DNA of 53,786 bases from an uncultured Asticcacaulis sp. (GTDB taxonomy: Bacteria > Pseudomonadota > Alphaproteobacteria > Caulobacterales > Caulobacteraceae). The stretch is from positions 1-53,786 of the forward strand of contig CAMLIY010000002.1 of assembly GCA_946480125.1 (NCBI GenBank), read 5' to 3'. Below the pieces are notes generated by a model that saw only the letters and a program-made list of their open reading frames with translations, had not been told where the DNA came from and searched no databases. Both the position numbers and the translations under genes were made by a program. How positions within the stretch are numbered: the stretch's first letter is position 1; every line of letters begins with the position of its first letter. This document shows positions 14,555 to 45,444 of the stretch, one piece after another.

Positions 14555-14572
14555 TTGATCGAAAATGATCAA
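14555..14572. promoter_or_regulatory. Pectin/rhamnose box 1, perfect match
   Basis: TTGATC-GAAAAT-GATCAA, a perfect 6-bp-arm palindrome with a 6-bp spacer, ends 25 bp before the ATG of the sialate-type esterase gene. It is the best copy of a motif repeated before other pectin and rhamnose genes in the window. The position fits a repressor site at the promoter. Confidence 0.65.
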
Positions 14573-14597
14573 TTTAAAACAAGCGGAAACATAGCCC

Positions 14598-16070
14598 ATG
14601 GCCATCAAGCCATACAAAATCACCCTCATCACCGCAGTTGTGGCCTGCCTCGCGCCGGCGGTCGGATACGCAGAGGTTCGCCTCCCTCACATTCTTTCCG
14701 ATCATATGGTGTTGCAAGCAGGCCAGCCCTTGCCGGTCTGGGGCTGGGCAGATCCAGGCGAGACAATCACGGTTCGTTTCGCCAAACAGGTCAGACACAT
14801 CCGTGCCGGCAGTAACGGTCACTGGCAGATTACGCTCACACCCGTTGAGCGATCGGACACGCCCCAGGAAATGAAAGTATCTGGCGCGCATAGTACTTTA
14901 GATGTCAGGGATGTACTGGTCGGCGAAGTCTGGCTGGCCTCCGGACAGTCAAATATGGAAAAGCCGGTCGGCGACCAGCCCGGCCAAAAGCCAACCTTTA
15001 ATGCCGAATCCGAACTGGCCGCCGCCGATCATCCTGATCTGCGCCTCTTCAAGGTTAAGCGCGCACGCAGCGATACGCCGGCCGAGGACGTGGAAGGCGA
15101 ATGGGTGCGCTGCGACCCCACCTCGCTGGAGGCCAGCAAGTTTTCAGCGGCCGGTTACTTTTTTGGCCGCAAACTGCAAGCAAGCCTGGCCACGCCTGTG
15201 GGCATGATCGATTCCACCTGGGGCGGCACGCGTATCGAACTGTGGACGCCTGGCCAGGCCTTTGCCACAGTGCCCACACTGACCGCCTACGCCGAAGCCG
15301 CGAAGACGCCGGGTAAGCAAATTGACGGGACTAAATTGTCCACGCTTTACAATGCCATGGTCGCGCCACTTGTGCCTTACCGGATTAAGGGCCTGATCTG
15401 GTATCAGGGCGAAAGCAACCTGATCGATGTGGTTGACGGTTCTATCTATGCTGACAAGATGACGGCCCTGGTCGATGGCTGGCGGGCTCAGTGGGGCCAG
15501 ATGTTTCCGGTATATTACGTGCAGATCGCCCCCTATCTCTACCACCTGCATTTCAATACAACGGTCGTCTCTTCCCAATCCGAACCAGTCATATGGGAAG
15601 CGCAGTCGGCGGCCCTGCGCCTACCCAAAACCGGCATGGTCGTGACCACGGATCTCGTCGACGACCTGTTCGATATTCATCCGCGCGACAAGAAGACGGT
15701 CGGCGAACGCCTGGCCAATCTGGCCTTGAGCCGTGATTATGGTCAGACGGGTCTGGCGACCTGGGGCCCCGTTTTCGCCGCTGTCCGTTTCGACGCCGAT
15801 AAGGCCATTCTGCGTTTTGATCACGCCCAAGGCCTCACAACCCGAGACAAAAAGACGCCGGACTGGTTTACAATTGCGGGTCCGGATGGCGTCTATTATG
15901 CCGCCAGGGCCACGATCGATGGTGATCGCATCATCGTTTCAAGCCCGCACGTCGCCGCACCGGTGCATGTGCGATTTGCCTGGGACGAAGGCGCACAGCC
16001 CAATCTTATAAATGGCGACGGGCTGCCAGCCTCCCCCTTCCGGACAGATAATCCGTTCGGCGCGCCGTAA
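14598..16070 (+). CDS. Secreted SGNH esterase of the sialate O-acetylesterase family
   Basis: 490 residues with a signal peptide ending VGYA (about residue 25). The N-terminal beta region (LPHILSDHMVLQ, PVWGWADPGE) and the catalytic ASGQSNM motif (Ser118) identify the sialate-O-acetylesterase family. The closing Asp/His region is probably around DIHPRDKK. In pectin loci such enzymes remove O-acetyl groups from glycans before lyases and glycosidases act; sialic acid is an unlikely substrate here. The perfect regulatory box just upstream links it to the rhamnogalacturonan genes. Its stop is 1 bp from the stop of the convergent Sel1-repeat gene. Confidence 0.9.
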   Translation: MAIKPYKITLITAVVACLAPAVGYAEVRLPHILSDHMVLQAGQPLPVWGWADPGETITVRFAKQVRHIRAGSNGHWQITLTPVERSDTPQEMKVSGAHSTLDVRDVLVGEVWLASGQSNMEKPVGDQPGQKPTFNAESELAAADHPDLRLFKVKRARSDTPAEDVEGEWVRCDPTSLEASKFSAAGYFFGRKLQASLATPVGMIDSTWGGTRIELWTPGQAFATVPTLTAYAEAAKTPGKQIDGTKLSTLYNAMVAPLVPYRIKGLIWYQGESNLIDVVDGSIYADKMTALVDGWRAQWGQMFPVYYVQIAPYLYHLHFNTTVVSSQSEPVIWEAQSAALRLPKTGMVVTTDLVDDLFDIHPRDKKTVGERLANLALSRDYGQTGLATWGPVFAAVRFDADKAILRFDHAQGLTTRDKKTPDWFTIAGPDGVYYAARATIDGDRIIVSSPHVAAPVHVRFAWDEGAQPNLINGDGLPASPFRTDNPFGAP

Positions 16071-16071
16071 G

Positions 16072-17619: not shown

Positions 17620-17654
17620 GGGAACCCCCTTTGTTTTTTATAAACGACTAAGTA

Positions 17655-21464: not shown

Positions 21465-21570
21465 GGCAAATCCTGAACGTTTCCCCGCGCCCGCTCCCCG
21501 TCCGGTGCGCTCTTATTTATCAGTGATGTTTAGCGCAGCCTTGCCAAAGCGCAAGAGGACATCGGCAATT

Positions 21571-21588
21571 TTGGTCAAATTCAATCAC
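21571..21588. promoter_or_regulatory. Weak pectin/rhamnose box between the LamG and GH2 genes
   Basis: TTGGTC-AAATTC-AATCAC matches 9 of 12 arm positions of TTGATC-N6-GATCAA. It lies in the 214-bp divergent region, 107 bp from the LamG start and 90 bp from the GH2 start. It aligns with a similar weak box upstream of the PL26-like gene, and the resemblance continues into a shared ACGCAC element. Confidence 0.35.
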
Positions 21589-21678
21589 ATTTACGCACAA
21601 TGGTGCATATTCGCCTTGCCGATGGCTGGAGCCGTGGTTAAGACTCACCGCAATCATAATTTCACAGGGGTTGGACGA

Positions 21679-24036: not shown

Positions 24037-24066
24037 TCATATTTGCTCAAAAATGCGTTTAATTCT

Positions 24067-24091
24067 TCAATATCGATCATTTTGATATTGA
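24067..24091. promoter_or_regulatory. 25-bp inverted repeat upstream of the epimerase gene
   Basis: Perfect 8-bp arms TCAATATC and GATATTGA flank a 9-bp centre, 31 bp after the GH2 stop. The right half (TGATATTGACG) recurs at 24202-24212, just before the epimerase gene. It could be an operator or a pair of -35-containing promoter elements. The function is not known. Confidence 0.35.
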
Positions 24092-30413: not shown

Positions 30414-30484
30414 TTGAACGTCCCTCTGTATTTGTTGACTTGAACGCTGCGGAAGGGGGGAGTCCGGCGGCTCAGATAAATTAT

Positions 30485-30502
30485 TTAATCAATTTCTTTC
30501 AT
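30485..30502. promoter_or_regulatory. Very weak pectin/rhamnose box before the PL26-like gene
   Basis: TTAATC-AATTTC-TTTCAT matches only 8 of 12 arm positions of TTGATC-N6-GATCAA. It aligns without gaps with the weak box at 21571-21588, including a following ACGCAC element. It is listed because of that shared extension and its position 72 bp before the start codon. Confidence 0.22.
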
Positions 30503-30533
30503 TTTCACGCACCATTTGTCAATCAACAGGCGC

Positions 30534-30588: not shown

Positions 30589-33500
30589 TTAGTTACGGTA
30601 GGTCAGGCCAACTTCCCAACGCGCACCGCCGTAGGAGATATTTTCCAGGGTCGGACCACCGTCCGAATAGGTATTATATGGCATGATTTCGCGGTAGGTC
30701 AGCGATCGGCCAATGTTACGGCCCTGGACGAAGACCTCGATATTATCATTGACCTTATAGTTCATCTTCATATCCAGGAAGCCGGTCTTGTCACGGAAGT
30801 TCGTGCCGCCCGGATTGTAGGGCGTACGGATCGTCTGGCCTGAGCACTGCGGGAAGGCGGTCGGATAGTTGTTGAGGGCGTTCGAGCAGGACGAGATGAA
30901 ATCGAAGTAACCAGCCTGGGTTTGCCAGGTCAGACGGGCATTGAAACGACCGTCATCATACCAGAGGGCGGCGTTCTGGGTGAAGGCACGCTGATATTGA
31001 GGCGGATTGTAAGCGCCCGTAATCAAGTCCTGAGTCACCTGGAAGTTGGCCGTGCTCATCTTGGTATAGTTGTAATCAATACCGGTATATTTGAGCAACC
31101 ATGGCAAGGCGGTGAAGGCCATCTTTGTCGAGAACTCAATACCGCGCTGCAAGCCGCCTGGACCATTCACATAGGACGGGACGTTGAAGTCATAATTGGC
31201 ATAGAGCTCCCCTGTCACCGGATCCTTGGCATCGCTGCCGGCGAAGAAAGCGCCGGCCGGCAGGTTGGCCGCAATTGGCTTGCCGGTGATGACATTGTTA
31301 TAGAAGTAGGCGACCGAGATATTGAAATCCTTCGATGGATACCATTCGAGGGACTCGTTGTGATTGATCGCCTTATAGGGCTTCAGTGCCGGGTTACCAA
31401 CGCGGCCCGAGCAGGAATTGGTGCCATCGGCGCCCAAAGTATCATTGATATCCGCATCATTACGTTCGTCGATCGTACAGGTGCCGGAAGGCAGCAAGGC
31501 CGCCGGCGCCGGACGCGAAATCACGTGGCCGGAATAGTAGCGCGCCACCAGCTTGTTCGGGATAACCCACAGATTGAGGTTATAGCTGGGCAGCCAATCC
31601 GTCGTGTGGCTTTCAACAGATGTATTCATGGCGATCGAGCTGGTCGTGACGCTGTTATTATTCAGCACCGGGTCCCAGCCGGGATTGACCGAGGTGTGCG
31701 CCAGTGTAAGGAAGCCGGTCGCATTAACATCCGTCTTGACCACACGGGTGCCCACGTTACCGTTGAATACCATATCATACCAAGGCAATTTCTGCTCGAA
31801 ATCGACCATCAGGTACATCGCGTTCGTCTTTTCATGGAAGGCGAAGTGCGGTTGGGCGTAAGTTTTGCCGTCATTGGCGGTACAGACCTTCATACAGCTA
31901 AAGTCAAAAGTCTGTTCCGGCATCGCGGCGACGATAGTATCGGGATTAATGAGCGGCCATGAGGCCAGGACATCTCCCTTATCCGTATAGTCGCCGAGAT
32001 AGTCGTAACCGCGGCTGTAGAGGCTGCTCTGGATCAGCGAAGCGAGTTGGTCCGGTGTGAAGGTATAGGTGCCTGAGAGCTGGTTGCTCAGGCTGGTGAG
32101 CGCATTGTTATTGGCCCCGACAATCGAGCTTGGCGTATAGCCGTACTGACACGATTGGGTCGAGGTTGCCGTCGGTGCACAGGAACGATAATTAACGGTA
32201 AGGTTCTCGGTCGGCACAACTATCGGCGCAACGTAATTGGCGTCACCCACCACACCGGTGCCTGTCGCGACCGTATAGCCGCCGCCCGACCAGGCATTGC
32301 CGCGGTGATTACGAGCCTGCATACCAAATTGCAGGTCCTGAATGAACGGAATCTTGCCTTCGAAATCGTAGGTCAGGTCGTATTTAAGCTGCTTCTCACC
32401 GTCATCCGACATGACCGGACGCCAGGTAACGTTGAAATTGGTCCCCCATTGCGCGGCCTGAAGCGCTGTATAGGCGGGAGCTGCCGCCTGGTTGGCATTG
32501 GCAACGGCCGAACTGCGACTTGTAACCGAGTTCAGAGCTGCATAAGGCAGGGAGCCGATATCAAGTCCCGCCGGCAGGTCGTAGGTCCACAGGCCGGATG
32601 GTGTAATGTGTGCATCAACCGAGCCATAGGTATAGTTGACCGCGGTGCGTTGTTGCGCGCGCTGGAAAGTCGAGCCTGAATCGCCGTAGAAGAAGTCAAG
32701 CTTGACGTTTTCGTGCTGGTAATGACCACCAATCTGCGCTGCCCATGATGTGACCAGCGTGTGATAATGGATCGCATCGACATTAACATTGGCATCGTTG
32801 AGCGTGAACGAAGTCACGTGATGCGTATCATCGACAACCACATTGGTCATATCGCTTTCGACGCCACATCCAATCGTCGTCTGGGCCGCACCTGCGCCGG
32901 CCACCGTCGGGGCGCAAAGACCGTTGCTGTAAAAGCCATAACCAAGGCCAGTCGCGACAGTGCGCGGCGTAACAGAGCCGTTCGACGTTGCAGCGACCGT
33001 CGGTTGCGAAGAGGCGATATTACAAATTCCCTGGATACAGACCGTACCCTGGTTGTACGCCGGGCTGCCGAGGTTGAGCGTATCATCACGATTATCGACT
33101 GTCCGGTTACGAACATTGCCGGAAACATACAGTGTCAGATCGTCATTGACCCTGTAATCGAAGCGCAATTGCGCCGCCATACGACGCTCGTAGGCCCGTT
33201 TGGAGAAGCTGCGGATCAGCGACGGCGCATAATCGTTCCACTGGTTCAGACAGGTCGCCAATTCATTGGCCTGCTCGGCTTGCGCGGCCTTGCCGTTGTT
33301 GCTGGCGCTGACACCGGAACTCGCTACCGTACCAAGCACATTGCTGCCGGCTGGAACGGCCGCCAGCTGAGCGGTTGTCAGTGACGGAAACGCTGTTAAA
33401 CAGTCCTGCGGGGTCTGTGCCGCCGCCGATTTATTCAGAATGTCGATCGGCGATGCGGAAGCATACAGGGGCGCACCACTCGAATTGAGCACCCGGAAGT

Positions 33501-34371
33501 TGCCGTCAGTCGCCGTCGGATCGACGATCGACGAGTCATAGCTGAAGGTCTTGTCCGCAGATTGATCGAAGTCGGCCAGACGCGACGGGCCGGCATTACC
33601 TGAAGTCTGCGGCTGCTGCGCATCGGCATTCGTCTGGGTTTCCGAATAGCTGATGTTCCCGGTCATGCCGAGGCGGCCATCAAGGAAGCGGCGGGCGAAA
33701 ACAGCGCTCCATTCCGGAGTCCACTGCTTGGATATGGAGTTCATCTGCTGATCGACGGTCAACTGGAAGAACGGCTTCTTGAAATCAAGGCCGGTACGCG
33801 TTTCGATGTGCACGGAGCCGCCCAGGCCACCTTCGGTCATGGCTGCGGTCGAGCCTTTAACCACATCGATGCTCTTGACCATGTCGGCCGGCAATTCACG
33901 CAAGTCGGCGCCACGGCCGCCATCGGCGCTACCGGCCCCGCCGGCGAGCGCACCATTGGTATTGAGCGTGCTCATACCGTCGACGTCAACCAGGGTTGAT
34001 TCCATACCCTGGCCACGGAGCGAGAAACCCTGCCCTTCACCATTATCGCCACGATCCAGCGAAACGCCGGCGATGCGCGAAATGGCTTCATTGACGTTTT
34101 TGTCGGGGAAGTGGCCGATATCTTCGGCGACGATCGAATCGGTGGCCGTCTTGGCCCGCTTCTTGCGATCGATTGACGAACGTTGCGAAGCACGCTGGCC
34201 GGTAACAATGACGAGTGTGGGGTCCGCTGACTGTGGCAGAGCCTGGGGCGTGGCCTGGGTTGTGGTTTCTGTGGTCTGTGCCGAAGCCATGCTGGCGCCG
34301 GCAAACAATGCAACGAGCGCAAACGCGGTTCCATTACGCAAACGACGTGCCTGATGGGATGTCTGTATCAC
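30589..34371 (-). CDS. Large TonB-dependent receptor, probable RG-I oligosaccharide importer
   Basis: 1260 residues from a GTG at 34371, preceded by a strong AGGAGGAATTAAG. An Arg-rich leader and signal peptide (ending ASAQ, about 32) are followed by the plug (about 60-210: DIGHFPDKNVNEAISRIAGV, GFSLRGQGMEST, LVDVDGMSTL, DMVKSIDVVKG) and a long beta barrel ending in WEVGLTYRN. The size and plug are typical of carbohydrate TonB receptors in Caulobacterales and Sphingomonadales. It has its own terminator and a 459-bp upstream region with a good regulatory box. Its place among pectin enzymes makes rhamnogalacturonan or oligogalacturonide uptake across the outer membrane the likely role. Confidence 0.9.
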   Translation of the reverse strand: MIQTSHQARRLRNGTAFALVALFAGASMASAQTTETTTQATPQALPQSADPTLVIVTGQRASQRSSIDRKKRAKTATDSIVAEDIGHFPDKNVNEAISRIAGVSLDRGDNGEGQGFSLRGQGMESTLVDVDGMSTLNTNGALAGGAGSADGGRGADLRELPADMVKSIDVVKGSTAAMTEGGLGGSVHIETRTGLDFKKPFFQLTVDQQMNSISKQWTPEWSAVFARRFLDGRLGMTGNISYSETQTNADAQQPQTSGNAGPSRLADFDQSADKTFSYDSSIVDPTATDGNFRVLNSSGAPLYASASPIDILNKSAAAQTPQDCLTAFPSLTTAQLAAVPAGSNVLGTVASSGVSASNNGKAAQAEQANELATCLNQWNDYAPSLIRSFSKRAYERRMAAQLRFDYRVNDDLTLYVSGNVRNRTVDNRDDTLNLGSPAYNQGTVCIQGICNIASSQPTVAATSNGSVTPRTVATGLGYGFYSNGLCAPTVAGAGAAQTTIGCGVESDMTNVVVDDTHHVTSFTLNDANVNVDAIHYHTLVTSWAAQIGGHYQHENVKLDFFYGDSGSTFQRAQQRTAVNYTYGSVDAHITPSGLWTYDLPAGLDIGSLPYAALNSVTSRSSAVANANQAAAPAYTALQAAQWGTNFNVTWRPVMSDDGEKQLKYDLTYDFEGKIPFIQDLQFGMQARNHRGNAWSGGGYTVATGTGVVGDANYVAPIVVPTENLTVNYRSCAPTATSTQSCQYGYTPSSIVGANNNALTSLSNQLSGTYTFTPDQLASLIQSSLYSRGYDYLGDYTDKGDVLASWPLINPDTIVAAMPEQTFDFSCMKVCTANDGKTYAQPHFAFHEKTNAMYLMVDFEQKLPWYDMVFNGNVGTRVVKTDVNATGFLTLAHTSVNPGWDPVLNNNSVTTSSIAMNTSVESHTTDWLPSYNLNLWVIPNKLVARYYSGHVISRPAPAALLPSGTCTIDERNDADINDTLGADGTNSCSGRVGNPALKPYKAINHNESLEWYPSKDFNISVAYFYNNVITGKPIAANLPAGAFFAGSDAKDPVTGELYANYDFNVPSYVNGPGGLQRGIEFSTKMAFTALPWLLKYTGIDYNYTKMSTANFQVTQDLITGAYNPPQYQRAFTQNAALWYDDGRFNARLTWQTQAGYFDFISSCSNALNNYPTAFPQCSGQTIRTPYNPGGTNFRDKTGFLDMKMNYKVNDNIEVFVQGRNIGRSLTYREIMPYNTYSDGGPTLENISYGGARWEVGLTYRN

Positions 34372-34830
34372 CTTAATTCCTCCTGTGCGGCTTTCGCCGC
34401 CTGACCTAAATCTTGTTTAAACGGGATCTGCGTCCCGGTTTGCACTGCCCCTGCCGCTAACCATGGCCGGATACTTAAAACCTTTACCCTTCAGCCCACC
34501 CTATCTCACGAAAGATATATTGGGCTCGAATAAGTCTATTTGTCTTGATTGATCGTGATGAGTCAAGGCTTGATGCGCGATATTGCGCAATACTTGTCTT
34601 ACAAATGATCAAATTCCTACCCGTACGTTACAAAAAAATCACATAACATCCCAACAGTTAACATTGCGGCCACCGCCCCATAAGGGGCCGAAAGCATCAA
34701 ATTTTACTTAAATATCTGACTTTATTATCTAAAAATAAAATATATAAAAATTATCCGATATTTTGAATTACGTCAGCAATTTGTCGCCATTAACCAGCGC
34801 GCTGCGTAATAATCATATTCAATCAAATCT
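34372..34830. other. 459-bp intergenic region upstream of the TonB receptor
   Basis: This is the only gap above 300 bp. Nearest the receptor it holds the strong ribosome site and an unassigned leader of about 170 bp, then the regulatory box at 34549-34566. Next come a small GCCCC-ATAA-GGGGC hairpin (34675-34688) without a T-run, and an AT-rich stretch (about 34695-34775) unlike the GC-rich surroundings. No ORF with support was seen. No clear -35/-10 pair was assigned. Confidence 0.6.
34549..34566. promoter_or_regulatory. Pectin/rhamnose box upstream of the TonB receptor
   Basis: TTGATC-GTGATG-AGTCAA matches 10 of 12 arm positions. It lies 177 bp upstream of the GTG start and sits inside a longer imperfect palindrome (CTTGA at 34544, TCAAG ending 34567). 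Confidence 0.55.
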
Positions 34831-36180
34831 TCATGCCTTCGCGACGGCTACGGCATAGGTATGGACAGGACCATGCATATTGGAGTGAAAAATAAGCCAT
34901 TTGCCATCGGGTGAAAAGCGCAGGTTCGGCTCCAGCCGATAGTCGTGATCCTTCATATTGACCAGTTTTTCTGACCTCAGCACGCCAGGCCGCACGAGAT
35001 CAGCCGCATTAGGCGCGCTGACGCCGAGATCCTCGATAATCTCCGGGCGGAACAGGTAGATATATTTGCCGTCCGGCGCATGGGCCACCATGTCGGCGTC
35101 GCCTCCATCACCTGCGAACAGAGTGCCATCCTTTGAGACATTGAAATGCACCGACCATTCGTTGCGCTGCATGTGATACCAGATGCGCTTGCCGGTTTTG
35201 AGATCGATATTGGCCAGCCAGAAATCCTCACCGCGCGGCGTCTGCAAATCGTAGAAAAGCTTTGAGCCATCCCAGTTGAAAAACTCATGGCCGGCGATTT
35301 CCATATTCATCGCGCGTTTGTGCATCAATTGCTTGCCCGTACCATCGGTCCGGATCGTCCAGATGCGGTCAACCTCGTGCCACGGACCTTCGTGGCAATA
35401 CATCAGAAGTCCCGGATCGGCCGGCGAGAACTGCATATGGTTCAGCCAGTCGGTGGAATGGACCAGAACCTTGCGCGCGCCGGTCTTTATATCAATGGTG
35501 AAAATGTCCATCGGCACATCGGCGGCCAGGCGCTGCGCCATGCGATATTCCTTGGCGGCGGCGAAGGACATCGGCTTGCCATCGGGACCGATGGCATTAT
35601 AGCCGCCGTCCGTGCCGGCCACTTTGGGCCCCGGTTGCAGCGGCACATCCTTATAGGCATAGGAGCCGACCAAAAGCGTATCATCGGCATTGACGGAGGT
35701 GACGAAACCCTTTTCCACGGCGGCGATTTTCGTCACGGCGCCGGTATTGATGTCGATGGAAAAGACGTCATTCGTCGCCTGAGTCGCATTATCCTTGTCC
35801 GCCGAACGCGGCCGGGCATAGATGACAGCTTTCGATGCGCCGGTCTGAAAGGCGGCGAGATTGCCGGTATACAGAGTCTTTTCCTCAAACGTCTGCATAT
35901 CCACCAGACTGATACCGTCCGGTCGGTTCATCACCATCCATCTGTTGTCCGGCGAATAGGCCGGAAAGTTGAAATAGAGCGACTGGGTATGGTCGGTATT
36001 GGAAAGGCGCACAATGCGATGACCTGTATCAGCATCTATCCAATCGCGCGGCACAGGCCCCATACTTTTCGCCTCTTCAGGTACAGCCTGCGTACTGGTA
36101 GCCGAAAAAATCCCGGCAGAAGCCGCCGTCCCTACCGCGGCGCTTAGAAAATCACGTTTGCTGAAATGGCGTTTGGTCAT
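34831..36180 (-). CDS. PL22 oligogalacturonate lyase family protein with Tat-like leader
   Basis: 449 residues. The seven-bladed propeller of oligogalacturonide lyases is indicated by repeated blade motifs (YSPDNRWMVMNRPDG, FSPDGKWLIFHSN) and by His-rich metal-site strands (CHEGPWHEVDRIWTI, IAGHEFFNWDGSKLFY). The enzyme splits short oligogalacturonides into unsaturated monomers. PL22 is usually cytoplasmic, but here an N-terminal SKRDFLSAA leader with a hydrophobic stretch (about 8-32) suggests Tat export using a Lys-Arg pair. A regulatory box lies 86 bp upstream, so it probably has its own promoter although it follows the lipoprotein genes on the same strand. Confidence 0.88.
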   Translation of the reverse strand: MTKRHFSKRDFLSAAVGTAASAGIFSATSTQAVPEEAKSMGPVPRDWIDADTGHRIVRLSNTDHTQSLYFNFPAYSPDNRWMVMNRPDGISLVDMQTFEEKTLYTGNLAAFQTGASKAVIYARPRSADKDNATQATNDVFSIDINTGAVTKIAAVEKGFVTSVNADDTLLVGSYAYKDVPLQPGPKVAGTDGGYNAIGPDGKPMSFAAAKEYRMAQRLAADVPMDIFTIDIKTGARKVLVHSTDWLNHMQFSPADPGLLMYCHEGPWHEVDRIWTIRTDGTGKQLMHKRAMNMEIAGHEFFNWDGSKLFYDLQTPRGEDFWLANIDLKTGKRIWYHMQRNEWSVHFNVSKDGTLFAGDGGDADMVAHAPDGKYIYLFRPEIIEDLGVSAPNAADLVRPGVLRSEKLVNMKDHDYRLEPNLRFSPDGKWLIFHSNMHGPVHTYAVAVAKA

Positions 36181-36266
36181 AATAGCGATCCCTGCTTGCC
36201 GGCTAATGACGCCGCTTTGATTTAGTGCAGGATAGTCGTATTTTTACCGCTCGCAAATGTTTAATT

Positions 36267-36284
36267 TTGATCGATGGTGATAAA
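36267..36284. promoter_or_regulatory. Pectin/rhamnose box upstream of PL22
   Basis: TTGATC-GATGGT-GATAAA matches 11 of 12 arm positions. It lies 86 bp before the PL22 ATG and just after the end of the second small lipoprotein gene. Confidence 0.6.
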
Positions 36285-36340
36285 ACATTGAGTTCACGAC
36301 GCGCCTTCCTTTGATTAAGAGGGCGATATTGGTCGGGAAT

Positions 36341-36598: not shown

Positions 36599-36665
36599 GT
36601 GTCCCTCCTCCTGATATGTTTTGAATAGGTATTTTGGAAGAATCCGTCACGTTCTCAGAACGCAT

Positions 36666-36716
36666 TCAAGCCAGCTTCAATGCCTCGAAATCGCGGTAAG
36701 CGTCGGTCAAGGATGC
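36666..36716 (-). pseudogene. Remnant of a DUF1961 gene 3' end
   Basis: Directly after the stop of lipoprotein copy A, the minus strand encodes ASLTDAYRDFEALKLA and a stop. This aligns with the C-terminus of the intact DUF1961 protein nearby, APLVAAYNDFEVWKLN and a stop (9 identical residues). The following noncoding bases up to the lipoprotein copy B start also resemble those after the intact gene. It is best read as the truncated leftover of a tandem duplication. Confidence 0.72.
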
Positions 36717-36717
36717 T

Positions 36718-36969: not shown

Positions 36970-37035
36970 GTGTCCCTCCTCCTGTATTTTTTTAATGCGT
37001 ATTTCGGAAAAATCCGTCGCATCAGGTCATGTAAA

Positions 37036-37772: not shown

Positions 37773-39089
37773 CTAAACGATGCCGCCGTGCAGGTAAGGG
37801 TCGAACTTGCGCGTCTCGGCCTTGAGCGCGCGATAGGACGAGGCGCGATAACAGGCGATCGGGTCGATGGCCCCGCCCTTGCGTACCCGCGCCATTGCCA
37901 GGGCCGCCCGCACATCGGTTTCAAACGCCAGACGCAGGCAATTATGCGCCATGATGACATCATTATCGGCCTGATAGGCTTTCAGGGCCTCGCGGTCGAC
38001 GATCAGCGCCTTGGCATAGGCGCCGGCGATGGCCCGCGCCGAATTGAGCAGGCTTTCCATCGGGTCGGTGACATTGTGCGACTGGTCCATCATATAGGCC
38101 GGACGGAAGCGCCCCTTGGCGCGCTGTTCGGCATAGACCAGTTCATTGAAAACCAGAAAGAGCTGGAACGGATTGATCGAGCCGGAATCGAGGTCGTCAT
38201 CGCCATATTTGGAATCGTTGAAATGAAAGCCTCCCAGCTTGCCGAACTGCGCCAGGCGCGCCACGATCATCTCGATATTGACCCCCTGCGCATGGTGGCC
38301 GAGATCGACGAGACACTGGGCCTTTTCGCCCAGGGTCTGCGCGCACAGGATACTGGTGCCCCAATCCTGCACGACCGTGGAATAGAAGGCCGGTTCGAAC
38401 ATCTTGTGCTCGATGAACAGCCGCCAGTCATCCGGCAGGCTGGCGTAAACGATCCGCATCGAGTCGAGATAGCGCTCCAGCGAGTCGGTGAATTCGCTCT
38501 GTCCCGGAAAGTTGGAGCCATCACCCACCCACACGGTCAACGCCTTTGAGCCCAGCTTGCGACCGATCTCAATACATTCGAGGTTATGCTCGATCGCCTG
38601 CTGGCGCGTGGCCGGATGGCTGTGGCTGAGGGAGCCAAACTTGTACGAACGCTTCTGGTCCTTCTGGTCCTGGAAGGTATTGGAATTGATAGCGTCAAAG
38701 CCCAGTCCGTGGGCTTCGGCATATTGGCGCAGGGCGACATAATCATCGGCCTTGTCCCACGGGAAATGCAGCGAGACGCGCGGCGTGAGACCCGCCAGTT
38801 GCTGGACAACGCCGCAATCCTCTATTTTCTCGAAGATATCATTGGGCTCGCCGGCCAGCGGGTAGCGTGAAAAGCGCGTGCCGCCCGTCACCAGCCCCCA
38901 GCTCGGCAGGCCAACTTCAAGCGTCATTATCTTGGCGACAATATCCTCGATATCGAGGCCGATACGGTCAAGCCGGGCTGCCAGCGCGTCATAATCAGCC
39001 AGGTGCGCTTCCATGAGCCGCGCATTGTCACGCGTGATGACATCCTGCGGAATGCCCTGGAGCGTACCGGCGATGGCGACATAACCCAT
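37773..39089 (-). CDS. rhaI: L-rhamnose isomerase (Pseudomonas stutzeri / RhaI type)
   Basis: 438 residues, with a strong AAGGAGGACTGA ribosome site. The TIM-barrel metal ligands of the RhaI-type isomerase are recognisable: IEHKMFEP (Glu), LVDLGHHAQG (Asp and His), GGFHFNDSKYGDDDLD (His, Asp) and YMMDQSHN (Asp). The enzyme converts L-rhamnose to L-rhamnulose in the cytoplasm, the first step of the phosphorylated pathway. It lies 103 bp after the bifunctional aldolase gene and leads into DUF1961 and the lipoproteins. This physically ties sugar catabolism to polysaccharide handling. Confidence 0.94.
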   Translation of the reverse strand: MGYVAIAGTLQGIPQDVITRDNARLMEAHLADYDALAARLDRIGLDIEDIVAKIMTLEVGLPSWGLVTGGTRFSRYPLAGEPNDIFEKIEDCGVVQQLAGLTPRVSLHFPWDKADDYVALRQYAEAHGLGFDAINSNTFQDQKDQKRSYKFGSLSHSHPATRQQAIEHNLECIEIGRKLGSKALTVWVGDGSNFPGQSEFTDSLERYLDSMRIVYASLPDDWRLFIEHKMFEPAFYSTVVQDWGTSILCAQTLGEKAQCLVDLGHHAQGVNIEMIVARLAQFGKLGGFHFNDSKYGDDDLDSGSINPFQLFLVFNELVYAEQRAKGRFRPAYMMDQSHNVTDPMESLLNSARAIAGAYAKALIVDREALKAYQADNDVIMAHNCLRLAFETDVRAALAMARVRKGGAIDPIACYRASSYRALKAETRKFDPYLHGGIV

Positions 39090-39192: not shown

Positions 39193-41346
39193 TTAGCGCG
39201 TGAAGGAAGGCGCGTGGCCCGCATCGACATTAAGGATGTTGCCGGTCGACTTGGAGGCTTTTTCGCCCGCCAGGAAAATCACCGCTTCAGCCACATCCTC
39301 AGCCAGCACCGACCGCTTGAGCAGGCTGCGCTTGCGGTAGAATTCCTCCAGCTCATCGACCGGCAGATTATAGGCCGCCGCCCGCTGTGCCCGCCACTCA
39401 CCGGACCAGATGGTCGAGCCTTGCAACACGGCGTCCGGGTTGACGACATTGACGCGGATGCCAAACGGCGCGCCTTCGACGGCGAGGCAACGGGCCAGAT
39501 GCAGTTCGGCGGCCTTGGCGGTTGAATAGGCAGAGGTTTCCGCCGATGCGGACAGAGCGTTTTTCGAAACGACGAAGACAATGGCGCCGCCCATGGCCTT
39601 CATGGCCCGGAACGCTTCTCGCGACGGCAGGAAATATCCCTCGGACAAGACGCGGAAACTCGACTGCCACAGTTCCAGCGAAGTATCGGTAATCGGCGCC
39701 GCCGTGGCATTGCCGGCATTGGCCACCAGTATGTCAATGCCACCGAATGCCTCGACACACGCCTCAAAGGACGCAGAGATGGCGGCCTCGTCACCGACAT
39801 CGGCGATGCAGGCGCGCACCAGGTCAGGACGGAACTGTTGCGACAGCTGACGCCGGACCTCTTCCAGGCGGTCTGCGGCGATATCGGTCAGCATGACGCA
39901 GCCGTCCTGCGCCAGGATCTGCGCCGCCACGGCCCGGCCGATCGCGCCCGCCGCGCCGGTAATATAGGCCACCTTGCCGGCCAGAGGCTTTGCGGGCGGC
40001 TGGCGCCTGAGCTTGGCCTCTTCCAGCGCCCAGTACTCTATGGCGAAGGCCTCGCCTTCATCCAGCGCCTGGTATCGGCCCAGCACGCGTGCGCCGCGGA
40101 TGACGGTCAGGGTATTGCGTACATATTCACCGGCGATACGCGCCGCCGTCCGGTCCGGCGCGAAAGCCAGGGCGCCGGTGTCGCGGATCAGGACAACGAC
40201 CGGATCAGGATCGCGCAAGGCCGGACTGTCGGCAGAACGGCAACGGTCATAATAGGCGCTGTACCGCTGACGATAGGCGTCAACGGCTTCCCTCACATAG
40301 ATTTCGGCGCCCGCGCCCGCCAGCGGTTCCGGGTCGAGGATCAACGGCCATGGCTTGGTGCGCAGGAAATGATCGGGACACGGCGCCCCCAGGGCGGCAT
40401 CGGCCAGATAGTCTGGACGTGACACGAAATCGATCACATCGGTGTCCGTCAGGCGTTCGCACAGCTTAGGCCGCGCCGTGCTTAACAGCGGACGCAGCAA
40501 GGTGGTGGCGCGTGTCAGCAGCGCCGGATTTGCCTGCCCACGGGCCGGCTCGATCAGCCCGGCATTTATGGCCTCGACTGCCTTGGCGATCAGCGACAGG
40601 CTGGTTTCATAACAGTCGCGTGACGTTTCGCCCCAGCAAAACAAACCATGCCCTTCCAGCACCAGACCGCGCCAGTGCGGATTTGCCCGTACCAGTTCTC
40701 CAATGCGCAGGCCGAGATCAAATCCCGGCCGCTGCCAGCCGATCCAGCCGACCTCATCGCCGTAAATGCGTTGCGTCACCGCCTGAGACTGATGCGTGGC
40801 GGCAATAGCGACGACGGCATCCGGGTGCAGGTGATCAACGTGACGATAGGGAATAAAGGCATGCAAAGGCGTATCTATACTGGCCGGACGCGGATTGAGC
40901 CCGAAGGTGCAATGGGGCAGCAGCCCCACCATGTCGTCTTCGGCGTCGCGCCCCTGATAAAGCCCCTCCAGGCCTTTCACGCGGTCGAGATAAAGTGTGG
41001 CGAAACCATCGAGCTTCATCGAACCGAGATCACCGCCCGATCCCTTGACCCACAGCACCGCGACCGGTGCCCCGGTCAGCGGATCGAGATCTTCAAGCTT
41101 TGCCGAGGTATTGCCGCCGCCGAAATTGGTTACGGACAGGTCTGAACCGAGCAGATTTGAGCGGTAAAGCAAACACTCGGCTTCAGATAAATGACGGGCA
41201 ACCGCGTCATCCCAGACCATTTGCGGGCTAGGCAGCCTGACCACGCCCGCATTGGGTGATGGGGACGGAGACGTAGACGCGCCCTGTAAACCATCCATGC
41301 GCTTTTCCTGATTATCCGCCGTCGGAGCATCCTGCGACAAGCTCAT
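39193..41346 (-). CDS. rhaD: Bifunctional rhamnulose-1-phosphate aldolase / short-chain dehydrogenase
   Basis: 717 residues from the ATG at 41346, which has a GGGAG ribosome site; a longer open frame to 41433 is AT-rich and runs into the divergent promoter. The N-terminal class II aldolase domain (about 30-400, with NFGGGNTSAK, WVKGSGGDLG and VDHLHPDAV as zinc-site His region) is fused to an SDR domain (about 445-717) with AYITGAAGAIGRAVA, NAGNATAAP and YSTAKAAE. It cleaves L-rhamnulose 1-phosphate to dihydroxyacetone phosphate and L-lactaldehyde and converts the latter. This fused form is the known RhaD/aldol-ADH type. It is divergent from the rhamnulokinase gene. Confidence 0.93.
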   Translation of the reverse strand: MSLSQDAPTADNQEKRMDGLQGASTSPSPSPNAGVVRLPSPQMVWDDAVARHLSEAECLLYRSNLLGSDLSVTNFGGGNTSAKLEDLDPLTGAPVAVLWVKGSGGDLGSMKLDGFATLYLDRVKGLEGLYQGRDAEDDMVGLLPHCTFGLNPRPASIDTPLHAFIPYRHVDHLHPDAVVAIAATHQSQAVTQRIYGDEVGWIGWQRPGFDLGLRIGELVRANPHWRGLVLEGHGLFCWGETSRDCYETSLSLIAKAVEAINAGLIEPARGQANPALLTRATTLLRPLLSTARPKLCERLTDTDVIDFVSRPDYLADAALGAPCPDHFLRTKPWPLILDPEPLAGAGAEIYVREAVDAYRQRYSAYYDRCRSADSPALRDPDPVVVLIRDTGALAFAPDRTAARIAGEYVRNTLTVIRGARVLGRYQALDEGEAFAIEYWALEEAKLRRQPPAKPLAGKVAYITGAAGAIGRAVAAQILAQDGCVMLTDIAADRLEEVRRQLSQQFRPDLVRACIADVGDEAAISASFEACVEAFGGIDILVANAGNATAAPITDTSLELWQSSFRVLSEGYFLPSREAFRAMKAMGGAIVFVVSKNALSASAETSAYSTAKAAELHLARCLAVEGAPFGIRVNVVNPDAVLQGSTIWSGEWRAQRAAAYNLPVDELEEFYRKRSLLKRSVLAEDVAEAVIFLAGEKASKSTGNILNVDAGHAPSFTR

Positions 41347-41429
41347 TGAAGTCTCCCGGCTTTCGTGATTTAATATGTATGATAAAATATAGTGCTTGAA
41401 AAAGACGATATAGCCTATTTCGCCAAGTT

Positions 41430-41447
41430 TCAATCACTATCGATCAA
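41430..41447. promoter_or_regulatory. Pectin/rhamnose box in the rhaD-rhaK divergent region
   Basis: TCAATC-ACTATC-GATCAA matches 10 of 12 arm positions. It ends 25 bp before the rhamnulokinase ATG, the same distance as box 1 from its gene, and lies 83 bp from the aldolase start. One site could serve both directions. Confidence 0.55.
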
Positions 41448-41472
41448 AAATAAAAACGGCGAATACGCGCTG

Positions 41473-42903
41473 ATGATCAGGGATACGCAGGTGGTACAGG
41501 CACGAAACAGTCAGGCAGGCCCAAACGCCATCGTTTTCGATGTTGGTCGCACACATATCAAGGTCAGCGTCGTTACGTCCGCAGGTGAGGTTCTGGCCGA
41601 AAGACGTATCGCCACGCCAACTCGCCAAACGGCGCTTTATACCGCCATTGACACCGATATGGTGTTCGACTGGCTGCTGCTGCAACTGAAGGGCCTGGCT
41701 TCTTTCGGCATCGACCGCATCATACCTGTGGCCCATGGCGCCGCTTGCGCCTTCCTCGATGAGCATGAACAGCTGGTTCAGCCCGTACAGGACTATGAGT
41801 CGGCCATTCCACCGGCTTTCGCTAAAGCCTATGCCCGCGTCCGGCCGCATTTCGACGAGACCCTCTCGCCTCCCCTGCCAAAGGGCCTGAACCTCGGCGC
41901 TCAGATATTCTGGCACGCCCGTCGCGATCCGCAGATGTTCAGCCGCGTGCGCTGGATATTGCCCTACCCCCAATATTGGGCCTGGCGTCTGAGCGGTGCG
42001 CTGACATGCGAGATTACTTCACTGGGGTGTCATTCGGACCTGTGGTCTCCTGCCTGGGGGGATTTTTCTTCCCTGACACATAATGAAAACTGGGCGGCGC
42101 GTTTTCCCCGCCTGTGCAAGGCCTGGGAGGCAGCGGGCACACTTCGCCCGCACCTGGCGCGTATCACAGGGCTGCCGACAGCCACGCGAGTTTGCGTGGG
42201 GCTGCACGATTCGGGCGCCGCCCTGGCTTCACTGCTCGGCGGCTGGCAAACCGATACCACCTTGCCGGCCCTGCTCTCGACTGGCACATGGTTCATCGCC
42301 ATGGCGCCTGGCGCTTCGCTGCAAGGCCTGCAGGCCGAGCGCGACTGCATGGGCGCCGTCGATGTTTTCGGTCACGCCGTCCCCTGCGCCCGCTTTATGG
42401 GAGGGCGCGCCTTCGAAATGATTACACAAGGTCAGGTCAATCCTGATATCGGCCCGGAAACCCTGGTGGAGGTGATGAGCCAGTCCGCCGTCGCCTTGCC
42501 AAGCTTTCTCGATGCCGGCGGGCCTTATCCAGGTTTGCGGGGTGAAATTCGCGGCCTCAATTCTGATACGCCGTCTACACGTACGGCGCTGGGCACGCTT
42601 TATCAGGCGCTTTTGTCCGTTACCTGCCTCGGCATGATCCAAAGCGGGCGGGCGCTGGTTATGGAAGGCATGGCAGCCACCAATCCCCTGCTGTGCGGAT
42701 TGATTGCCGGTCTGCACGATGGCCCCGTATTATGCAACCCCCAGTCGTCCGGTGTCACCCAGGGCGCCGCCGCGCTGGCCTTCCTGGGCGAACGGCCCAT
42801 GCCGCGCCTTACCCATACGCCCGTTAAGCCCCTGCTCACCGAAGAAATCCGCGCCTATCGTCAGCTGTGGATGGCGGCCATAGATGAAAGTGTCGCGGCC
42901 TGA
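41473..42903 (+). CDS. rhaK: Rhamnulokinase, FGGY family
   Basis: 476 residues from the ATG at 41473. The N-terminal phosphate-binding strand NAIVFDVGRTHIKVSV and the second ATPase-fold domain (GLHDSGAALASLLGG, STGTWFIAM) mark an FGGY sugar kinase. The locus (rhamnose isomerase, rhamnulose-1-phosphate aldolase) identifies the substrate as L-rhamnulose, though the FGGY family alone does not. It acts in the cytoplasm with ATP. It is divergent from the aldolase gene and 134 bp upstream of deoR, which has its own regulatory box. There is no strong ribosome site, so the start is only moderately certain. Confidence 0.87.
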   Translation: MIRDTQVVQARNSQAGPNAIVFDVGRTHIKVSVVTSAGEVLAERRIATPTRQTALYTAIDTDMVFDWLLLQLKGLASFGIDRIIPVAHGAACAFLDEHEQLVQPVQDYESAIPPAFAKAYARVRPHFDETLSPPLPKGLNLGAQIFWHARRDPQMFSRVRWILPYPQYWAWRLSGALTCEITSLGCHSDLWSPAWGDFSSLTHNENWAARFPRLCKAWEAAGTLRPHLARITGLPTATRVCVGLHDSGAALASLLGGWQTDTTLPALLSTGTWFIAMAPGASLQGLQAERDCMGAVDVFGHAVPCARFMGGRAFEMITQGQVNPDIGPETLVEVMSQSAVALPSFLDAGGPYPGLRGEIRGLNSDTPSTRTALGTLYQALLSVTCLGMIQSGRALVMEGMAATNPLLCGLIAGLHDGPVLCNPQSSGVTQGAAALAFLGERPMPRLTHTPVKPLLTEEIRAYRQLWMAAIDESVAA

Positions 42904-42936
42904 TCTCGACAAAGATCCGTTTTGCCCCTATACGAA

Positions 42937-42954
42937 TCGATCACAAGTGATCAT
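42937..42954. promoter_or_regulatory. Pectin/rhamnose box upstream of deoR
   Basis: TCGATC-ACAAGT-GATCAT matches 10 of 12 arm positions and contains the perfect inner palindrome GATCAC-AA-GTGATC. It lies 83 bp before the deoR ATG, as expected for autoregulation. Confidence 0.6.
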
Positions 42955-43037
42955 CACCGTGTGTCCAGTACGCATATCGATACATTTGGACCCAAATTAC
43001 CCGTTACCGTACACGCGGAAGCTCGACAGGACATATC

Positions 43038-43862
43038 ATGCATCTTCAGGATCGCTGGAAACGTATCATCGACGAATTGAACAGCGATCGCGTTACGTCT
43101 GTAGAGGAACTGACCGAACGGCTGGGTGTATCTCCGGCGACCATCCGACGGGATCTGAACGAACTGCACGAACTGGGTCATCTGCTGCGGGTACGGGGCG
43201 GCGCCACGCGCGCCGACAGCACGATCCAGAACCCACGCGCCGGTGACGAACGCCGCAGCGGACTGACCGGGCAATCGGCTTTCGCCGACAGCGTGATCAC
43301 CAACGCAGCCGCCAAACGCGCCATCGCCCGCCTGGCCCTCAGCTATATTACGCCCGGCCTGTCGATGATCATCGATGGCGGCACCACCACCTTCATGATG
43401 GCCTCGATGATGGCCGATGAGCCCTATCATGTCCTGACCACCTCGGTGCCGATCCTGCAATGCCTGTTCGAGCGTCCGCGTATCAAGGTGACGGTGCCGG
43501 GCGGCGAGCTGTTCCGCGACCAGAGCATTATACTCAATCCTTATGATGACGGCATCCTTCAGCATTTCGCGGCCCAGCGCATGTTCATCGGTTGTCAGGC
43601 GCTGACACGAAACGGCCTGTTGCAGACCGATACGTTACTGGTGCAATCGGAGCGCCGGCTGATGGAACGCGCCAGCGAAGTCATCGTCCTGGCTGATTCC
43701 AGCAAGATCGATGCGCCGGCGTCGCTGTCCGTCTGTCCGCTCAAAGAAATCGACGTGCTGATCACCGATGAAAACATCGATCCGACCGCCGTCCGCTGGT
43801 TGAACGCGCACGATATCGAGGTGCGTATCGCCAGGATCGAAGATAATGCCGCCGCGGCTTAA
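43038..43862 (+). CDS. DeoR family regulator, probable rhamnose/pectin regulator
   Basis: 274 residues. The N-terminal helix-turn-helix (about 5-60) includes [25 protein letters not shown], the DeoR signature, followed by the GGATR motif. The rest is the DeoR sugar-phosphate sensor domain ([36 protein letters not shown]). DeoR repressors usually bind phosphorylated sugar intermediates, so rhamnulose 1-phosphate is a reasonable inducer. It is the only pathway regulator in the pectin half of the window, which makes it the prime candidate to read the TTGATC-N6-GATCAA boxes. The tail overlaps rhaM by 4 bp, convergently. Confidence 0.9.
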
Positions 43863-44173
43863 GCCATGTGAAAAACCGGCGTCAGGCTGGTTTGCTGCGG
43901 CGAATTGTCCGGATTAGTCAGCATGATGTCGGCCATGTAGGCCCACCATTTCTTCATGACCGGGTGATCCGGCAAGGCATCCATGCCGTGTGTGTCCGTG
44001 CGCTTCAGTACGCCGAACAGAGTCAGGGTCGTCTCATCGAGAAAGATCGAATAGTCGGACACGCCCGCGTCATGCAGCAGGTCCGACAGTTCTGGCCAGA
44101 TTTCGTCATGACGGCGTTTATATTCAGCCTCGAAGCCGGGCTTGAGCTGCATGGTGAAGGCGATGGTTTCCAT
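43859..44173 (-). CDS. rhaM: L-rhamnose mutarotase
   Basis: 104 residues, the usual RhaM length, without a signal peptide. Family features are the N-terminal [25 protein letters not shown] with the active-site His, then [15 protein letters not shown] and the Trp pair in [12 protein letters not shown]. It interconverts L-rhamnopyranose anomers in the cytoplasm to feed the isomerase. The start is 8 bp after the stop of the rhamnogalacturonan acetylesterase gene, so the two form one short operon controlled from the divergent region at 45.4-45.6 kb. Confidence 0.95.
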
Positions 44174-44181
44174 GTTAAGTC

Positions 44182-45444
44182 CTATTTAACGGGTGTGGGC
44201 TCGGCCTTCTGATCGATCTGGACGCGCATCTGCGGCCAGTCGGCAGGCGTTATGACAAAAGCATGCGGATCGCCTGGCTGTTCCGCAGAGCACGCCGGCA
44301 AATCGGCGGCGGCCGCGATTTTCAGGTCTGGCATCTTCGCCAGATCATGCGCCACAAAACAGGCGATCATATAGGCGCCATAGGCGTTGTGGTGTGTCTT
44401 TTCACGGTTATGATCGGCGAAGGCGAGTGGCGCCAGTTCGGGTCCCAAAGCCTCATAAAACTGAGTGGTCTGCCGTGTGAGATCGATCAACGGCACATTC
44501 AGGCGCGCGGCGGTGGCGCGCACGGCGTCATCATAACCGGCGTGGCTGTTTTCGATCCGCCCCCCTTTGAAAGTGCGGCGCGCCACCGGCGTTACCAGAA
44601 CCGGCAGGCCGCCGCGCTGACGGACATCGGCGACGAAGGCGGCGAGATAGGCCGGATAGCCTTGCTCAGGTGCGGCATAGGTACGCGGCCACTGTTTCTT
44701 TTCGTCATTGTGGCCGAACTGGATCAGCACCACATCGTTGGGCCTGACCTCGCTCATCACCTTGTCCCAGCGCAGCGAGGTCAGGAACGACTTCATCGTT
44801 TCGCCGCTGCGGGCATGATTGGCAACCGACACATCCGGGCCGAGGAAGCGTGGCAGCATCTGGCCCCAGCTGGCATAGTCGCCGCCCACCTGATCGGTAA
44901 CGGTGGAATCTCCCGCCAGCAAAATGCGACGCGCCGTTACGGGCCGAACCGTGAGCGAATCAAACGCGGGTTTTTCACCGGAAACCGTCAGGGTTAACTG
45001 ATCATCCCAATTATAATCGGTGGCGTCGCTGCCGCGCAGTCGCACCTGCGGCGCAGACGGGTCGGTCTCCTGCTGCATCAAGCTTGTGTCGCGGACATTG
45101 ACAGTGAAGGTCAGGGTGCGCGTCTCTCCCGCTTCTAACACAACCGGCCCCGCCATCAGCCGGCGATCCTCGGCCCAGACCGAGGTGCGGCTGGCCTCAT
45201 GCCCCCCCACAGTCAACGACACACGATAATCACCGGGCACGGCGCGCAGCGAGAAGGCGCGCGCGTGACCGGGCAAAGTGACAAAACCATAACCCCGCGC
45301 AGCATTGTAGACCGTATTGGCCTGAACGGTGGCGTCAGTGCCTGAAAAGGTAAAGGTTTGTGCCGAAGCTGGCATTGTGCCGCCTATTATCAGCCCCATG
45401 ACGAGCGCCAGGGATTTGAGATTGCACTGATCGATGTTGATCAA
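44182..45444 (-). CDS. Secreted rhamnogalacturonan acetylesterase (SGNH)
   Basis: 420 residues if the TTG at 45444 is used. This is the only canonical-type start that keeps the Lys before the hydrophobic signal core ([11 protein letters not shown] to ASAQ); the internal ATG at 45399 would leave a leader without positive charge. An N-terminal beta domain (about 30-165) precedes the SGNH hydrolase: [11 protein letters not shown] (Ser180), [16 protein letters not shown] and the closing [13 protein letters not shown]. This is the pattern of CE12-type RGAE/YesT enzymes that deacetylate RG-I. It forms an operon with rhaM. A regulatory box overlaps the first six codons. Confidence 0.88.
45427..45444. 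promoter_or_regulatory. Pectin/rhamnose box in the RGAE / GH43-GH35 divergent region
   Basis: CTGATC-GATGTT-GATCAA matches 11 of 12 arm positions. It covers the presumed TTG start and first codons of the acetylesterase gene and lies 124 bp before the GH43-GH35 start. Binding here could block the start region of one gene and the promoter of the other. Confidence 0.6.

Follow-up and report, generated by a model that had tools for sequence, protein, structure and literature searches.

A direct repeat of the RhaR type as the predicted common operator of rhamnose and rhamnogalacturonan I genes in an Asticcacaulis cluster

Gene content of the locus and its recurring box

The window analyzed here, that is, the whole stretch of 53,786 nucleotides from an uncultured Asticcacaulis sp. 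(contig CAMLIY010000002.1), was found by Pfam and NCBIfam profile searches to be a gene cluster of an Asticcacaulis-like bacterium for the utilisation of rhamnogalacturonan I. The annotated genes encode a SASA-domain esterase, GH2, an aldose epimerase, an alpha-L-arabinofuranosidase, a PcRGLX-type lyase, a TonB receptor, PL22 and DUF1961 proteins, followed by rhaI, rhaD, rhaK, a DeoR-family regulator, rhaM, an RGAE-like esterase, GH43-GH35, GH88, an MFS/GPH-type symporter and GH28. The subject of this work is a short box that recurs between these genes, and the DeoR protein (RhaR below) as its proposed reader. An initial annotation, made from the sequence alone, had described the box as TTGATC-N6-GATCAA and as the mark of a pectin-rhamnose regulon.

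The six intergenic positions given there proved to be correct, namely 14555 (no mismatch), 36267 and 45427 (one mismatch each), and 34549, 41430 and 42937 (two mismatches each). At a threshold of at least 10 of 12 arm positions, the window contains nine matches, of which six are intergenic and three coding (22762, 25140 and 47542). When genic and intergenic blocks were shuffled separately (300 shuffles), 2.14 matches were expected in the whole window, in agreement with the earlier estimate of about two, and 0.22 in the intergenic part, where the largest number was two. The intergenic excess claimed for the box is genuine. With up to three mismatches the excess was slight, at 27 matches as compared with 19.6 expected, and was equalled by 4 of 100 shuffles.

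Architecture of the box and its sites in the window

We found that the box fits a 10-bp direct repeat, TGATCGAnnnTGATYGA, better than an inverted repeat. As GATC reads the same on both strands, TGATCGA repeated in one direction may be mistaken for TTGATC-N6-GATCAA, and the two readings overlap. Intergenic matches to TGATYGA-N3-TGATYGA at 12 or more of 14 positions numbered nine (12 with the coding ones), as compared with 0.18 expected and at most two in any of 300 shuffles. Exact TGAT-N6-TGAT was present upstream of deoR in all 11 Asticcacaulis loci, where the conserved element closely resembles TGATCGATNNTGATYGATTC, and these 11 sites were aligned together with six further ones. The two shapes were compared in 19 homologous regions, comprising the 11 Asticcacaulis deoR promoters and eight others that we chose after earlier scans had scored them. 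The direct repeat stood at the floor of the shuffle test in 17 of the 19 regions (median p 0.003, the floor of 300 shuffles), as compared with a median p of 0.066 for the palindrome, which showed p ≤ 0.05 in eight. The 14-letter direct-repeat pattern, which was built on the 11 deoR sites, exceeds the palindrome in length, and the remaining eight regions are the fairer test; in these, the direct repeat gave p ≤ 0.014 in all eight and the palindrome p ≤ 0.05 in three.

These data bear on an alternative in which another dimeric regulator, of the LacI, GntR or CRP/FNR kind, recognises the box as a genuine inverted repeat, TTGATC-N6-GATCAA, with the DeoR protein as a bystander. The perfect palindrome at 14555, the six intergenic matches against 0.22 expected and the eight of 19 homologous regions with a significant palindrome are in its favor. 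We consider it improbable in view of the lower p values of the direct repeat, over the 19 regions as well as in the eight that took no part in deriving the pattern, and of the occurrence of the box at rha-linked DeoR genes (nine of nine, as compared with none of five unlinked ones; see below). The box of FNR and FixK is TTGAT-N4-ATCAA. A site of that type was rejected on its spacing, as the arms of the initial annotation correspond to TTGAT-N8-ATCAA, four bases longer. A common box does appear to mark a pectin-rhamnose regulon, as that annotation held, and it is the TTGATC/GATCAA palindrome that gives way to the better-fitting direct repeat.

Sites were scored with a foreign matrix, built only from the deoR promoter sites of 11 other Asticcacaulis, and with a 17-site matrix derived mostly from other species (Table 1). 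The four best matches of the foreign matrix in the window were 42934, 14554, 41427 and 45426, which are four of the six boxes described before. The next ranks were taken by a coding site at 15911 and then by 24060, 30482, 45468/45478, 36256, 21568 and 34806. Intergenic hits of at least 12 bits numbered ten, overlapping registers counted, as compared with 0.32 expected. With this matrix, 36267 reached only 9.3 bits and 34549 was absent from the 32 best matches listed. We rejected 34549 as the TonB-receptor operator, for which it had been proposed, since the nearby 34545 reached only 7.6 bits (E 0.49, direct-repeat model), and 34806 scores far higher and has counterparts in three relatives. The six positions were accurate, and five sites had been overlooked or rated weak (21568, 24060, 30482, 34806 and 45478). 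Among the weaker copies formerly listed, 21571 and 30485 were retained (20.0 and 15.4 bits with the 17-site matrix, 13.3 and 14.1 bits with the foreign matrix), and 39154 was dropped because it scored below 13 bits with the 17-site matrix.

Table 1. Genes and predicted RhaR operators of the window
Feature	Coordinates	Strand	Basis and remarks
SASA-domain esterase	14598..16070	+	PF03629
PcRGLX-type rhamnogalacturonan lyase	27678..30413	-	three PcRGLX domains
TonB-dependent receptor	30589..34371	-	PF07715; TIGR01782 above cut-off
PL22-like oligogalacturonate lyase	34831..36180	-	PF14583
rhaI, L-rhamnose isomerase	37773..39089	-	TIGR02629 above cut-off
rhaD, rhamnulose-1-phosphate aldolase/dehydrogenase fusion	39193..41346	-	NF006189, TIGR02632 above cut-off; start picked by eye
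rhaK, FGGY kinase	41473..42903	+	Pfam FGGY; no NCBIfam kinase model above cut-off; start picked by eye
deoR (= rhaR), DeoR-family regulator, proposed box reader	43038..43862	+	HTH_DeoR PF08220 2.4e-18; DeoRC PF00455 3.4e-39
rhaM, L-rhamnose mutarotase	43859..44173	-	TIGR02625 above cut-off
SGNH/GDSL esterase (RGAE-like)	44182..45399	-	PF13472; start picked by eye
GH43-GH35 two-domain hydrolase	45569..49549	+	PF04616, PF01301; start picked by eye
Predicted operator of deoR (autoregulation)	42934..42955	-	top window match of foreign matrix
Predicted operator, divergent rhaD/rhaK promoter	41427..41448	-	22.7 bits foreign matrix; 30.4 bits 17-site matrix (training site)
Predicted operator before SASA-domain esterase	14554..14575	+	23.0 bits foreign matrix; 30.7 bits 17-site matrix (training site)
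Predicted operator 1 between RGAE and GH43-GH35	45426..45447	+	20.6 bits foreign matrix
Predicted operator 2 of GH43-GH35, 52 bp past operator 1	45478..45499	+	18.3 bits
Predicted operator before PL22; overlapping second register 36256	36266..36287	+	15.9 and 13.9 bits
Predicted operator upstream of TonB receptor, by PL22 stop	34806..34827	-	22.6 bits; replaces 34549
Weak predicted operator before RGLX-type lyase	30482..30503	-	14.1 bits foreign matrix
Predicted operator before aldose 1-epimerase	24060..24081	-	16.9 bits foreign matrix
Predicted operator between LamG-domain gene and GH2 (GH2 start placed by eye near 21680)	21568..21589	-	20.0 bits

The DeoR-family reader and its relatives

Features expected of a RhaR were found for the window protein, namely a DeoR-type HTH with a DeoRC sensor domain, linkage to rha genes, a direct repeat of period 10, and the operator of the Rhizobium leguminosarum locus. 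The R. leguminosarum homologue, found among plasmid records and 39.6% identical, belongs to the classical rha locus as its regulator gene, and the rhaD/rhaR intergenic region there (198 bp) contains the operator twice, with 24.3 and 23.2 bits, the better score being reached by none of 1000 shuffles. We tested 15 DeoR loci, chosen by us from 270 records, with the rhaD/rhaK gap scanned for two sphingomonads. All nine rha-linked loci, from Rhizobiales, Rhodobacterales and Sphingomonadales, showed the operator, at 18.7 to 28.3 bits (scores reached by at most 4 of 1000 shuffles), as compared with none of the five DeoR loci unlinked to rhamnose, where scores did not exceed 13.7 bits. In more distant members of the family, with DeoRs of 35–42% identity, each of the five intact rha clusters had a site of 22–29 bits in the stretch and one of 18.5–27.0 bits in a rhaD, rhaK or deoR promoter. 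The incomplete contig L180 gave no site (10.6 bits).

Since the operator is found at rha-linked DeoR loci of other orders, including R. leguminosarum rhaR, the box appears to be the alphaproteobacterial RhaR operator, and hence of a known kind. The initial annotation had not recognised the motif from a described regulon, but it is present at the R. leguminosarum locus, and RhaR motifs of such architecture were published in 2013 (PMC3870299). In the main text of that study, by Rodionova et al., the RhaR motifs of the DeoR family are given as two imperfect direct repeats with a period of 10–11 bp; the text is without Asticcacaulis, Caulobacter or operator letters of this kind, and the likeness is one of described architecture. 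The operator type is already known, and what is new is its predicted reach in Asticcacaulis to rhamnogalacturonan genes, to TonB receptors and, in two relatives, to L-rhamnonate dehydratase.

The choice of the DeoR protein as the best candidate reader, with autoregulation, is supported by the deoR-promoter sites, the matrix recovery and the rha-linked DeoR loci. Taken together, these results suggest, with a probability that we put at roughly 0.86, that the box serves as operator for RhaR, the DeoR-family repressor encoded at 43038–43862, which would jointly control rhamnose use and rhamnogalacturonan I breakdown.

Conservation and reach of the predicted regulon

DeoR orthologues were present in 11 Asticcacaulis loci at 70–81% identity and, across the family, in 19 of 149 genomes at 67–91%, these being partly the same genomes. 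The closest relative found was G129 (DeoR 91% identical), and a rhaK homologue lies just upstream of deoR in all 11 Asticcacaulis loci. When a matrix of eight window sites was applied to 75 kb of A. solisilvae, the ten best hits all preceded regulon-type genes, comprising GalM, a TonB receptor, RGAE/GH43-GH35 (two sites), L-rhamnonate dehydratase, rhaD/rhaK, deoR and the RGLX lyase; the eight sites had been chosen with a matrix including one A. solisilvae site, and this test is thus not fully independent. A lower-ranked site of 14.5 bits preceded a SASA-like gene, and a hit at 32164, in the position of rhaM, is probably coding. G129 showed sites at LamG/GH2, GalM, the TonB receptor, PL22, rhaD/rhaK, deoR, RGAE/GH43-GH35 (two, 52 bp apart) and L-rhamnonate dehydratase.

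Several window sites have counterparts at the same promoters. The LamG/GH2 site scores 15.9 bits at the corresponding place in G129, the aldose 1-epimerase (GalM) site 28.5 bits in G002 and 19.1 in G129, the PL22 site 20.1 bits in G129 and 18.2 in G124, and the RGLX lyase site 14.9 bits in G002, and the site between the TonB receptor and PL22 is also found in G129, G002 and G124. Both of the twin GH43-GH35 sites reach 13 bits or more, 52–53 bp apart, in five of seven aligned loci (the window, G129, G002, L001 and L005), and L009 and L011 have the first one only. The L-rhamnonate dehydratase gene, named by NCBIfam in A. solisilvae and preceded there by a site at 46593–46625, has predicted operators before it in two relatives, on G002 contig 11 near 46625 and on G129 contig 2 near 138652; in these relatives it lies beyond GH28, where the window ends. 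RhaR may therefore also govern the oxidative rhamnose pathway, as judged from the positions of these sites.

The genome-wide search for downstream genes that the initial annotation had put forward was run on the genomes of 11 relatives, using a sequence-only model of the 17 sites; 150 of 266 to 2,059 candidates were scored in each genome, so that the lists are incomplete. It gave 31 hits at E ≤ 1, 12 of which were training sites. For 15 of the 19 untrained hits, the downstream gene is of the rhamnose, rhamnogalacturonan, glycoside-hydrolase or TonB-receptor class, namely RGAE/GH43-GH35 (two), PL22, GalM, PL11 rhamnogalacturonan lyases (three), GH2 (two), L-rhamnonate dehydratase and TonB receptors (five, one of them between rhaI and the receptor). 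As genomes of this kind commonly encode generic TonB receptors, the TonB-receptor hits are weaker evidence. Counts among genomes that look like close kin (G003/G004/G006, G009/G011 and G005/G007) are not independent events; in each case a single event may lie behind the two GH2 hits, two of the three PL11 hits and two of the five TonB-receptor hits. In three genomes, two of them close kin, sites before PL11 lyases lie off the deoR contig or 30 kb from deoR. Two untrained hits in the 11 genomes reached E ≤ 0.05, as compared with none in 20 control genomes of the family without a DeoR match at 1e-40, which gave 10 hits at E ≤ 1; these controls were the first 20 listed without such a match, and are smaller and of a composition unlike that of the Asticcacaulis genomes.

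At E ≤ 5, we found 3–11 hits in the 11 genomes, 3–7 in nine further genomes with a near DeoR (hit contexts being examined in G129 and G124), and 0–4 in the 20 controls. Six genomes with a distant RhaR gave 0, 1, 1, 2, 1 and 1 hits; those of G016, G051, G128 and G053 are no more than about 10 kb from deoR, and the two of G054 on contigs other than that of deoR. G030 had no hit in the genome scan, yet a 22.2-bit site is present in its rhaD/rhaK region. These counts suggest an expansion of the regulon in Asticcacaulis, subject to the limit of 150 scored candidates per genome.

Counts of the one-mismatch pattern in the same 11 genomes (109 for N3, 70 for N4 and 317 for N2) were rejected as a measure of the regulon, as the spacing controls show them to be mostly background. 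Exact matches numbered 11 for N3, three for N4 and at least 10 for N2 among the matches listed; these counts are indecisive, and it is the contexts that tell. The exact N3 matches, in 10 of the 11 genomes, fall in nine deoR promoters, one RGAE/GH43-GH35 region (G002) and one TonB-receptor promoter (G007). A reversed-pattern control was set aside because it contains CTAG-like words, which are rare in bacteria. One possible explanation for the box is the chance recurrence of a short AT-rich promoter word, kept by descent and not by function, and the numerous one-mismatch background hits are consistent with this. We regard it as extremely improbable, given the intergenic excess of nine matches over 0.18 expected and the restriction of the box, at 31–42% regulator identity, to rha-linked regulators, the 31% type excepted.

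Several observations weigh against RhaR as the common regulator. Coding sites score too, 15911 at 18.2 bits with the foreign matrix and 1185 at 18.5 bits with the 17-site matrix, and among the 19 untrained hits three are coding and one precedes a beta-propeller gene, in addition to the one-mismatch background. The TonB-receptor operator is located 434 nt upstream of the start codon, which is far for a core-promoter repressor (527 nt in G129; in G002, 606 nt to the alignment start at residue 54, perhaps 450). One rhamnose-unlinked DeoR locus scores 13.7 bits, a value reached by 19 of 1000 shuffles, an Aminobacter rhaD locus with a 31% identical DeoR shows no operator (8.6 bits), R. leguminosarum RhaR shares 39.6% identity with the window protein, and the DeoR tree does not firmly group all rha-linked DeoRs, its deep forks being open and its long branches flagged. 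No site of 13 bits or more was found before PL22 in G002, before the RGLX lyase in G129, or upstream of rhaK in L005, L009 and L011, and the rhaD/rhaK sites of other Asticcacaulis are weaker (at most one mismatch in regions of 96–1107 bp). An Rfam scan gave no match in the window, including the putative long leader of the TonB receptor (34371–34827).

A narrower explanation is that RhaR controls the ancestral rha genes and itself only, the boxes at pectin genes being weak and of little effect, while another regulator runs the pectin genes. The lower scores at PL22, the RGLX lyase and 45478 (15–18 bits), the absence of the PL22 and RGLX sites in one relative each, and a second conserved palindrome at GH43-GH35 (45500–45523) agree with this, as does the LacI-family RhiR, which according to the main text of PMC3870299 is predicted to control rhamnogalacturonide utilisation in Rhizobiales and Erwinia. 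We think this explanation unlikely, though it deserves consideration, since at several pectin-gene promoters the site recurs in at least two species, the scores match those of rha sites (28.5 bits for GalM and 30.6 bits for GH43-GH35 in G002), and the PL11-lyase sites of three genomes, two of them close kin, are remote from deoR. We prefer RhaR as the joint regulator of both gene sets.

Proposed mechanism and relation to known systems

In all 14 deoR promoters shown, the operator directly follows a TATA-type word (CTAT in nine, TTAT in three, GTAT in two), with TCGACA about 17 bases ahead of it in nine of the 14. Given this position, and since R. leguminosarum RhaR is reported as a negative regulator (PMC9025865), repression that is lifted by a rhamnose-derived signal is the likely mode. 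RhaR would bind two half-sites of the same direction, one helical turn apart, and in the absence of rhamnose would sit on or just past the -10 region and block transcription. The signal that frees it would be an early rhamnose-uptake product, probably rhamnose itself or rhamnulose. Rhamnulose 1-phosphate, the effector named in the initial annotation, fits poorly, as full induction in R. leguminosarum is reported to be independent of the kinase gene rhaK (PMC9025865). Judging from the positions of the sites, the targets would be rhaD/rhaK, rhaR itself, RGAE/GH43-GH35, PL22, the RGLX lyase, the TonB receptor, the aldose epimerase, GH2 and the SASA esterase, so that the breakdown of rhamnogalacturonan I and the use of its rhamnose would be switched together.

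The twin GH43-GH35 sites are 52–53 bp apart, i.e., five helical turns, and cooperative binding or a loop is therefore possible. Directly past the second of them, at 45500–45523, we observed a palindrome, CATTGA-N12-TCAATG, which stands as an exact match, once per locus, at the GH43-GH35 promoter in nine of nine tested loci with this gene (the window, G129, G002, L001, L005, L009, L011, L099 and L182), with a variable N12; it is probably the site of a second regulator. A broader scenario, to which we give even chances, is that in Asticcacaulis a local rhamnose repressor came to act as master switch for the degradation of rhamnogalacturonan I, the operator having spread from the rha promoters to many others, some of them distant (PL11 lyases, TonB receptors), and to the oxidative pathway (L-rhamnonate dehydratase), with the phased GH43-GH35 pair acting together with a second regulator that reads CATTGA-N12-TCAATG.

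Like R. leguminosarum RhaR (rhaRSTPQUK/rhaDI), the window protein is encoded beside rhaD and rhaI and is associated with the same direct repeat. In contrast to that RhaR, which is described for rhamnose catabolic operons and an ABC transporter, the window sites reach polysaccharide depolymerisation and TonB receptors. RhaR of Thermotogales is described in the main text of PMC3870299 as co-regulating rhamnose oligosaccharide genes. Unlike RhiR, whose LacI-type operators are palindromic according to the same text, the RhaR direct repeat is carried here by the rhamnogalacturonan genes. Our full-text literature searches found no paper on such a regulon in Asticcacaulis, and none on Asticcacaulis with rhamnogalacturonan. 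For the use of pectin by Asticcacaulis, the sites provide a predicted operator and a list of targets that are open to testing, and they tie a genetically studied rhizobial repressor to one direct-repeat operator over four alphaproteobacterial orders. They also offer a case of apparent regulon growth, from 0–2 sites at E ≤ 5 in distant-RhaR genomes (n = 6) to 3–7 in near-RhaR genomes (n = 9).

Elsewhere in the window, two similar small tandem ORFs, lipoprotein-like by eye, lie between PL22 and DUF1961 (36340–36970). At 1750–6763, GH18-like, polysaccharide deacetylase and GT2 domains are combined in one large protein, which adjoins a 531-aa ORF without a Pfam match; no link to the regulon was seen.

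The A. excentricus plasmid pASEM-1 encodes a DeoR paralogue (L171) which is 42% identical, of the same genus, and located beside TonB-receptor genes. Unlike that of the window RhaR, its upstream region has no RhaR operator (4.7 bits) and shows an inverted repeat of its own, with perfect 15-bp arms, AATCTGGATCATTAT/ATAATGATCCAGATT, at L171 8939–8984, a candidate operator of another architecture. When 12 bp of the AATCTGGATCATTAT/ATAATGATCCAGATT arms were searched, both were found in L137 and L138 and one in L139, which hold paralogues of 48–49% identity.

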